A stretch of DNA of 34,279 nt from Eubacteriales bacterium (GTDB lineage: Bacteria; Bacillota; Clostridia; Lachnospirales; Lachnospiraceae), in the NCBI GenBank assembly GCA_030524125.1, contig JAUNHB010000023.1, positions 1 to 34,279 on the forward strand. The letters run 5' to 3'. The translations under genes and the position numbers were made by a program. Below the pieces are notes generated by a model. The model was not told the DNA's origin. It was given only the letters and a program-made list of their open reading frames with translations, and made no database searches. Shown here piece after piece: positions 1-33,844 of the stretch (the first letter of the stretch is position 1; every line of letters begins with the position of its first letter).

Positions 1-123
1 CGCGCTCCCCGCCGCTTCGCGGCTCTCTTTGCTCATAAGCTGGCGCTCCCTCAGCCGGAAGCAACAGGTCCCCATTCGTGCAAGCACGATGTTGACCTGC
101 CGCTCCCGGCTGGCTGAACTGTT
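1..123. repeat. Long-class palindromic intergenic repeat, left end cut by window
   Basis: This is the right-hand part of a structured repeat. It holds a perfect hairpin gccgc-ttc-gcggc at 11-23. A long stem follows, pairing 52-70 with 94-112 with few mismatches, and its tip is a second perfect hairpin cgtgc-aa-gcacg at 77-88. It ends with ggctggctgaactgtt, the same terminus seen in other copies in this window. The arrangement matches the copy upstream of purA at 11263-11432. It lies just upstream of the glyA promoter. The left terminus is outside the window. Confidence 0.7.
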
Positions 124-140
124 GTCAGGTAAATTCCTTG

Positions 141-1478: not shown

Positions 1479-1545
1479 GTAGCCGCGCAGCGGCGGGGAG
1501 CGCGTCAGCGCGGCTTTGCGAATGGCGCGGGCTGAACGGTTACTG
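1479..1545. repeat. Short-class palindromic intergenic repeat
   Basis: The segment 1496-1543 closely matches 28598-28647, including the identical 17-mer tttgcgaatggcgcggg. An outer stem pairs cgcgtc with ggcgcg through a G-T wobble. It ends with gctgaacggttac, a variant of the common terminus gctgaactgtt. The left terminus is degenerate or was lost at the glyA stop codon. Confidence 0.65.
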
Positions 1546-11187: not shown

Positions 11188-11262
11188 AAACAGTGTGCGG
11201 CAAAACGGAGGAACCGTGCCGCGAGGTCAGTACGTGCAGGCGGACAGAGCCTGTGAAATGGC

Positions 11263-11432
11263 GACAGTTCAGCCATGCATCTTGAAAGCTCGCTGCTTCG
11301 CAGCTAACCGGCGCTTGCGCGCCTGCTTTCTCGATCACGGCTAAGCGCCGTATGGCAAATATGGGAAAGCTCTGCTTACATGCAAGCATGACGCAGTGCT
11401 TCCCCATATTTCCCGCATGGCTGAATAGTTAC
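11263..11432. repeat. Long-class palindromic intergenic repeat in the purA leader
   Basis: This complete copy has 11-bp perfect terminal inverted repeats, ttcagccatgc (11268-11278) and gcatggctgaa (11415-11425), extended outward by acag/agtt-like bases. Inside are hairpin gctgc-ttc-gcagc (11292-11304), a GC-rich gcgcttgcgc hairpin, and a long stem pairing 11357-11370 with 11398-11411. The tip of that stem is catgc-aa-gcatg (11379-11390). The order and loops match the copy at 1-123, while the stem sequences differ. There is no coding potential. Confidence 0.8.
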
Positions 11433-11454
11433 GCGAAATGGAGGAACATAGATT

Positions 11455-14097: not shown

Positions 14098-14103
14098 CCG
14101 CGC

Positions 14104-14165
14104 AGTCAAAAGCGCCTGCCCCCTGAGCGGAAAGGGATCCGCGAAGGGGGCGGGCGCTTTTGACT
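14104..14165. terminator. Bidirectional terminator between convergent operons
   Basis: A 19-bp stem with one G-T wobble pairs 14104-14122 with 14147-14165, and an inner gcgga/tccgc hairpin extends it. The stem ends in cttttgact on the plus strand and in the equivalent run on the minus strand. It separates the plus-strand purA operon from the minus-strand two-component operon, whose last stop codon is at 14168-14170. Confidence 0.8.
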
Positions 14166-14167
14166 GC

Positions 14168-28560: not shown

Positions 28561-28581
28561 TAGGGTTGAAAAACTTTTGGC

Positions 28582-28648
28582 AACAGCTCAGCAAGCCGGG
28601 AGCGCGCCGACGCGGATTTGCGAATGGCGCGGGTTGGACTGTTGTTAC
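28582..28648. repeat. Short-class palindromic intergenic repeat, complete copy
   Basis: The left end caacagctcagcaagccggg and right end gggttggactgttgtta are imperfect inverted repeats. A central perfect stem pairs cgcgcc with ggcgcg around cggatttgcgaat. It shares the 17-mer tttgcgaatggcgcggg and most flanking bases with 1496-1543. It sits between divergent glnN and hydG, with its right end abutting the hydG promoter. Confidence 0.7.
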
Positions 28649-31870: not shown

Positions 31871-31873
31871 CGG

Positions 31874-31900
31874 TAACAGTTCAGCTGAACAGTTGCTGTT
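31874..31900. repeat. Minimal or collapsed palindromic repeat with nested dyads
   Basis: taacagttcagc is followed at once by gctgaacagttgc, sharing the central gc, as if the two ends of the dispersed repeat were joined without an interior. The 7-mer aacagtt is directly repeated at 31875-31881 and 31888-31894, and aacag-ttg-ctgtt (31888-31900) forms a further perfect dyad. It abuts the zupT promoter -35 box, so an operator is an alternative reading. Confidence 0.45.
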
Positions 31901-33640: not shown

Positions 33641-33774
33641 GGAATATTTCCGATACAAAAAGCAGATGTTTCAGTTTGAGAATTTCTGCGTGCGAAAACT
33701 GAGCCGATTGGCGCTTTGAGAGAATATATTCATATTAAAATTACAGTTTGCGGAAACTCAAGAATGATGCGGAG

Positions 33775-33844
33775 TAACAGCTCGGCCAGCCGGGAGCAGA
33801 AGGACGAAGCCGCGGCGAAAAACCTCTGGACTTTATAAGTTTAC
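33775..33844. repeat. Diverged palindromic intergenic repeat (one clear end)
   Basis: taacagctcggccagccgggagc (33775-33797) is nearly the reverse complement of 101-124 and matches the left end of the 28582 copy. The opposite end is unclear, although ctggactttataagtttac resembles the right end of the 28582 copy. It runs into the promoter of the regulator gene. The rest of 33641-33774 is A/T-rich, with a weak tcagttt/aaactga hairpin (33671-33702) and no gene I can support. Confidence 0.5.

Follow-up and report, generated by a model that had tools for sequence, protein, structure and literature searches.

Palindromic repeats of a Lachnospiraceae genome as probable MITEs with a structured core that appears distantly related to Clostridiales-1 RNA

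The dispersed palindromic repeats of a Lachnospiraceae draft genome are very probably MITEs that are moved in trans by a DDE transposase and that carry a core related to the Rfam family RF01699 (Clostridiales-1 RNA), this core being kept by selection. The explanation is built on what we observed: the ends, the target-site duplications, a single empty site, amplification to many copies, and covariation of the helices. In the proposed mechanism, a DDE transposase encoded elsewhere would insert the elements and duplicate 8 bp of target, as the ends and the duplication suggest. The copies would then decay through slippage between GGGAGCG-like direct repeats (from 160 to 104 to 62 nt), loss of ends and nested insertion. 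Selection would maintain the folded core, acting more probably on RNA in untranslated regions than on DNA, since the fold may make insertions tolerable or tune the host transcript. The mechanism is an ordinary one for MITEs; what appears to be new is the link of an orphan RNA family to two MITE chassis.

Repeat sites, ends and size classes

The window is the whole stretch of DNA analysed (34,279 nt) and comes from a source draft genome (G000) of 2,387,088 bases (2.39 Mb) in 95 contigs, which is 80.48% complete. A first-pass annotation had described six intergenic sites with common inverted termini. All six exist, but both ends are present in three only (11261-11432, 28580-28645 and 31873-31896). 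The focal element, at 11261..11432 on the minus strand, is 172 nt long, has the ends GCGACAGTTCAGCC...GGCTGAATAGTTAC and lies in the purA 5' leader; it represents a subtype, type B, and the type A model R1 matches it over 11261-11432 on the minus strand (model positions 1-164 of 164, E 1.1e-10). The element at 1..125 (minus strand) is of type A and is truncated by the contig end (R1 1-125 of 164, 107.6 bits); the gene downstream of it, 192-1475, encodes SHMT (PF00464). A right-hand fragment of type A at 1480..1543 (plus strand) has the 17-mer and the right end without the left one, and its R1 match spans 1434-1543 (E 3.4e-10). A left-end fragment of type A occupies 33774..33799 (plus strand) and lacks the right end, while a short type A derivative at 28580..28645 (plus strand) is deleted, keeps both ends and has the 17-mer inside; at these two sites the R1 search gave no match at E ≤ 0.1. 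The site at 31873..31896, to which no strand is assigned, consists of both ends with the interior lost (R1 E 0.0042). The 17-mer that had been taken as common to the short copies does occur at 1515-1531 and 28617-28633, its only places in the window with at most one mismatch, but it is absent from the focal 172-nt copy, which is of the other subtype. No match was obtained when the window was searched against Rfam at gathering thresholds. Separately, a 30-bp inverted repeat (90%) at 14102-14167, between convergent reading frames, is perhaps a two-way terminator and gave a weak R1 match (E 0.084).

The inverted ends are about 14 bp long, G(T/C)AACAGTTCAGCC, with the right end varying more than the left; position 2 is T in 23 of 37 copies and C in 10. 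Facing ends form 64 pairs in stretches of the own genome, counting some pairs that overlap and a few due to chance; the 160-169 nt bin holds 31 of them and the 60-69 nt bin eight. Elements of type A are mostly 160-162 nt long and carry the 17-mer near the right end. Type B elements measure 168-169 nt between the 11-base ends and have the ends of type A around a different interior sequence. Three GGGAGCG-like direct repeats, read by eye, lie inside type A, and slippage between them would account for the shortened derivatives of 104 and 62 nt; deleted type A copies retain both ends. The elements are short (160-172 nt), non-coding and multi-copy, as MITEs are.

Several described repeat families are comparable. 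The parts of PMC2229807 used here present Correia/NEMIS and other bacterial MITEs as elements of about 100-200 bp with inverted ends, target duplication and stem-loop transcripts, and according to them Correia elements too fall into size classes that have or lack an internal segment, as the repeats do here. Most MITEs in those parts of PMC2229807 have TA at their termini, in contrast to the G(T/C)AAC ends and 8-bp duplication found here. In the portion of PMC3446304 that treats the Bacillus cereus repeats, bcr1-bcr3 are likened to MITEs, bcr10 and bcr18 have conserved structure, and about half of the repeat copies are transcribed, often in UTRs; bcr1-bcr3 and bcr10/bcr18 are likewise dispersed intergenic repeats, in another host, and the likeness is one of description alone. 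Bcr1 is also among the stem-loop families listed in the relevant part of PMC2267715.

Some copies contain further repeats. At L109 (about 1560-1775), a different palindromic element of about 210 bp, with ends ATGTTACGATTCA and perhaps a TA target, is nested in a type A copy, and in L007, L019 and L029 what appears to be its right-hand part borders on fragments of type A. In L070, L079 and L088, ends resembling those of type A enclose a further repeat module (CCTCAAACAC...GAACAGG); it contains ATGAGCCCGCGAAT, which is reminiscent of the shared core motif.

Target duplications, copy number and the purA leader

The first-pass annotation had proposed a MITE, a REP-like element or a structured RNA module, and had suggested looking for target-site duplications, for empty sites in sister strains and for further copies with a covariance model. 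Target-site duplications are present and are 8 bp long. A duplication matching at 7 or more of the 8 positions flanks 11 of 55 two-ended copies of the own genome and 18 of the 79 that come from other genomes; shuffled data give 0.35 for each set. The 8-bp offset is one of 64 combinations and was chosen after the flanks had been seen, and it stood out in both sets. The copies counted have two ends 40-230 bp apart, are free of N and lie at least 30 bases from the end of their locus. Most copies are without a recognisable duplication (44 of 55 and 61 of 79, respectively). Exact duplications include TTTATTCT, GAAAATGG and ATCTGGCTG, and exact repeats of 8 bases and longer exist. The MITE reading is borne out by the inverted ends, by the 8-bp target duplications and by a site that is empty in sister genomes.

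The repeats are highly amplified. A covariance model of type A gave 120 matches at E ≤ 0.001 in the own genome (145 candidates scored), and the 11-base end AACAGTTCAGC, allowing one mismatch, gave 216 matches against 19 in the reversed control. As the genome is about 80% complete, the earlier extrapolation to hundreds of copies per genome was of the right order. The 17-mer with at most one mismatch was found 109 times and never in the reversed control, so both this word and the ends are conserved beyond chance. We ran the type A model on 20 genomes, which were chosen and not random, and obtained a match in 17; the others with matches include G218 (146 matches), G219 (117), G217 (103), G067 (54) and G163 (16), and there was no match in G161, G164 and G111. 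Carriers of the 17-mer number 11 of 150 family genomes, the own genome included. Assemblies of Acetatifactor, Catenibacillus scindens (Lachnospiraceae according to NCBI), Eisenbergiella, Roseburia and Lachnospira are among the named carriers in the matches listed by an exact 24-base scan. Within the genus, BLAST with the type A consensus matched three of 17 genomes: the own genome with 63 pieces, G163 with eight and one other weakly. Spread on phages or plasmids was considered and rejected. Viral contigs held no exact match to one type A pattern and one RF01699 pattern, the latter being narrow, plasmids gave no match for one type A copy and one RF01699 copy, and the two partial matches in phage records covered 53% of the query, at identities of 79.8% and 83.1%.

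The empty site was found at the insertion point of the focal copy, the one site tested. The gene downstream of this copy is purA, encoding adenylosuccinate synthetase (PF00709). The left target-site duplication lies at 11253..11260 (GTGAAATG) and the right one at 11433..11440 (GCGAAATG); they match at 7 of 8 positions, and the right one extends into the purA ribosome-binding site (GGAGG). The element sits between this site and the predicted promoter. We searched for the purA start in 17 genomes of the genus, the own genome included, and read the leader in 15 of the 16 genus-mates, the leader of one being unlocated. Eight of these 15 leaders have the unfilled site G(T/C)GAAATGGAGGAA (for example L359, L367 and L368), and 14 of 15 are without a B-like pattern. 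The exception, L363 of genus-mate G163, has a separate B-like insertion elsewhere in the purA leader, just after the stop codon of the upstream gene. A TATACT box is present within 200 bases upstream of purA in 15 of 15 leaders, and in the window such a box precedes the element, which indicates insertion within the purA 5' leader. We infer from this both the purA promoter and transcription of the focal element.

Candidate transposases

The REP-like alternative holds that the repeats are single-stranded hairpins moved by a Y1 (TnpA_REP) transposase of the REP/RAYT type. The repeats are indeed palindromic and of high copy number, and of the five carriers searched G003 alone has a Y1_Tnp gene; immediately upstream of this gene (L130, 1481) the 13-base end is matched with two mismatches (GTAACAGTTTATC). 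However, REP/RAYT elements are not known to make a target duplication, whereas the repeats have paired ends and 8-bp duplications, and Y1_Tnp (PF01797) had no match in the own genome or in G067, G056 and G074. Owing to the duplications and to the missing Y1 match in the draft genome, this part of the earlier proposal is unsupported, and we regard it as extremely improbable.

For the MITE explanation, the best guess at a partner, going by end sequence, is IS66, and it is a weak lead. GTAA ends with an 8-bp duplication are typical of IS66, and the repeats have GTAA-type ends and a duplication of this length. IS66 elements of Lachnospiraceae share these two features with the repeats, with GTAAC and GTAAG ends and perfect 8-bp duplications at L237 and L252; the remainder of their end (CGTCAAATAA) does not match the repeat end AGTTCAGCC. 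IS66 ends were resolved at three loci only (L237, L238 and L252: GTAACCGTCAAATAA or GTAAGCGTCAAATAA), all unlike AGTTCAGCC, which is why IS66 as a direct partner would be no more than such a lead. Around the other IS66 loci examined there was no end pair of the repeat kind; the loci scanned (L131-L134 and those numbered 225 and up, 43 loci; L131 and L234-L265) are a subset of all IS66 matches. An IS66 transposase search gave no match in the own draft genome and fragments only in the Catenibacillus scindens genome. The IS66 match positions are the same in G067, of the window genome's family, and in G216, which contains the Catenibacillus scindens locus. In the stretches examined, no insertion sequence bounded by repeat ends was found with a duplication, and dropping the duplication requirement yielded no convincing pair.

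The folded core and Clostridiales-1 RNA

Helix covariation is strong. The type A alignment comprises 30 of 39 representatives drawn from 86 full-length copies; among the nine omitted are the L177 and L197 variants, whose ends are changed but still paired. In this alignment 93.1% of helix cells pair and both sides have changed in 24 of 48 pairs, with 178 doubly changed cells against 64.4 in shuffled alignments, values that none of 500 shuffles reached; the test somewhat favours these helices since they were predicted from the same alignment. Helix 2 holds 15 of the 24 doubly changed pairs. In helix 5, ATGAGCA faces TGCGAAT and seven of eight pairs are invariant, which is evidence of conservation and not of covariation. 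An RF01699 alignment of 24 of 25 copies (L309 ran off its locus) has both sides changed in 29 of 41 pairs, likewise predicted from the alignment tested, and ATGAG and CGAAT are invariant words in it. The focal copy itself folds with z scores against shuffles of -7.99 (plus strand) and -8.70 (minus strand), the minus-strand RNA at -91.2 kcal/mol.

The structured-RNA reading of the first-pass annotation is therefore supported as regards the helices, and the choice between selection on RNA and on DNA is only weakly answered. If the fold were kept as DNA alone, its hairpins would aid transposition, or template switching in palindromes would maintain it, and RNA would play no part. This account retains an appreciable, though minority, probability: the inverted ends double as helix P1, template switching within palindromes can yield compensatory change, and copies show no visible preference for gene orientation. 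With a crude ORF caller, 85 of 89 anchors could be scored, four being at edges, and gave 39 codirectional, 31 divergent and 15 convergent copies against a background of 76, 54 and 26; 20 of the 89 anchors fell inside long ORFs, taken as spurious. It is opposed by the high conservation of ATGAG, CGAAT and a GCNNGC hairpin loop, all of which rank with the best-conserved positions when genera are compared, and by the excess of GU over AC cells on the modelled strand, which carries ATGAG (54:17 and 31:8). For pairs predicted from both strands the bias is weaker (68:42, 28:12 and 11:5; p 0.023, 0.036 and 0.15), and the cells are not independent. The G-U bias weakly favours RNA over DNA.

In a set of 16 loci, type A and type B copies match RF01699 at a relaxed threshold over model positions 1-166. 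In the own genome there are 52 matches at E ≤ 0.1, eight of them above the gathering score of 48 bits (76-124.8 bits); the 44 below it score 20.8-45.5 bits, and 38 of these lie at type A copies (best E 8.1e-9). A type B copy in L068 scores 40 bits. The gathering cut-off is not reached by type A and type B copies; the match covers the whole model (1-166). Of 14 control genomes, one gave a sub-cut-off match at E ≤ 0.1 and none at 1e-4. In the reverse search, the type A model found own-genome RF01699 copies in L271, L273 and L274, where the best E values ranged from 1.4e-7 to 4.8e-7, and gave weaker matches to those in L272 (0.0027) and L275 (0.0094). Of 40 RF01699 copies of relatives it found one at E ≤ 0.1 (L349, 3.6e-7). 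Both families have the GCNNGC hairpin loop, the ATGAG/CGAAT internal loop and a GGGAG hairpin. Nevertheless, there are clear differences. The first is the nesting of the helices, the GGGAG hairpin lying inside the third helix in type A. The second is in the ends and the duplication: RF01699 copies have ends GATGCCAGGGTCAAAAGG and a 7-bp duplication, whereas type A and type B copies have ends GTAACAGTTCAGCC and an 8-bp duplication. The own-genome copies above the cut-off end differently from type A, for example with TGAAAGCC and GCATAAAAGC. We read the relation between the type A core and RF01699 as real but distant; the first-pass annotation had recognised no named family in the repeats, which this relation corrects. 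G038 contains 19 matches to the type A model (best E 8.9e-7), and none of them coincides with the 13 RF01699 copies examined from that genome.

The RF01699 copies examined are MITEs themselves. On the 3' side they continue past the Rfam model as far as a second end, and their inverted repeats read GATGCCAGGGTCAAAAGG; 25 of 39 are flanked by an exact 7-bp duplication, mostly of A and T, against 1.49 in shuffled data, the element boundary having been set after the flanks were seen. These 39 are the distinct, strand-unique copies from 70 loci (L283-L352), the rest being off-pattern or repeated sites. Near-identical copies occur with unrelated flanks within one genome. RF01699 is present in 109 of 200 Lachnospiraceae genomes at E ≤ 1e-4, above the cut-off in 87 of 200, and with at least 10 matches in 37 of 200 (at most 13 candidates were scored per genome). 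Related structured cores with the ATGAG/CGAAT internal loop therefore sit in two chassis with different ends.

Rfam classes RF01699 as 'Gene; sRNA', and it might be supposed that these are fixed structured RNA genes multiplied by ordinary duplication and not by transposition. The strong covariation, the near-invariant internal loop and the tandem arrays would fit such genes; target duplications in both families, the empty site at the purA leader and near-identical copies amid unrelated flanks in one genome make them very unlikely. Weinberg 2010 (PMC2864571) listed Clostridiales-1, from Clostridiales and the human gut, as a probable RNA that is probably not cis-regulatory; in the main-text portion consulted it is named once, with no word on mobility. 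Our searches of the open-licence literature, judged by title or the start of the abstract, yielded no report of RF01699 as a mobile element. On present evidence, an Rfam RNA family of unexplained role is a widespread mobile element in a main gut bacterial family, which changes how RF01699 matches should be annotated. Transposition as MITEs also provides a natural experiment, in which related folds lie beside many different genes and related species offer both occupied and unoccupied sites. A more far-reaching possibility, which we consider rather unlikely, is that the ATGAG/CGAAT core is a structured RNA module carried by at least two MITE chassis and serving as a transposon-borne riboregulator or an RNA-protective insert; if so, it would seed many transcripts with one fold.

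Copies of type A, spaced about 98-169 bp apart, and copies of the RF01699 type also form tandem arrays, seen in L164, L182, L216 and L224 and at G000:C71:22380-22858 and G000:C66:2423-2921. In L273 (1158-1574), a T-box leader is followed by an RF01699-type copy about 35 bases downstream.
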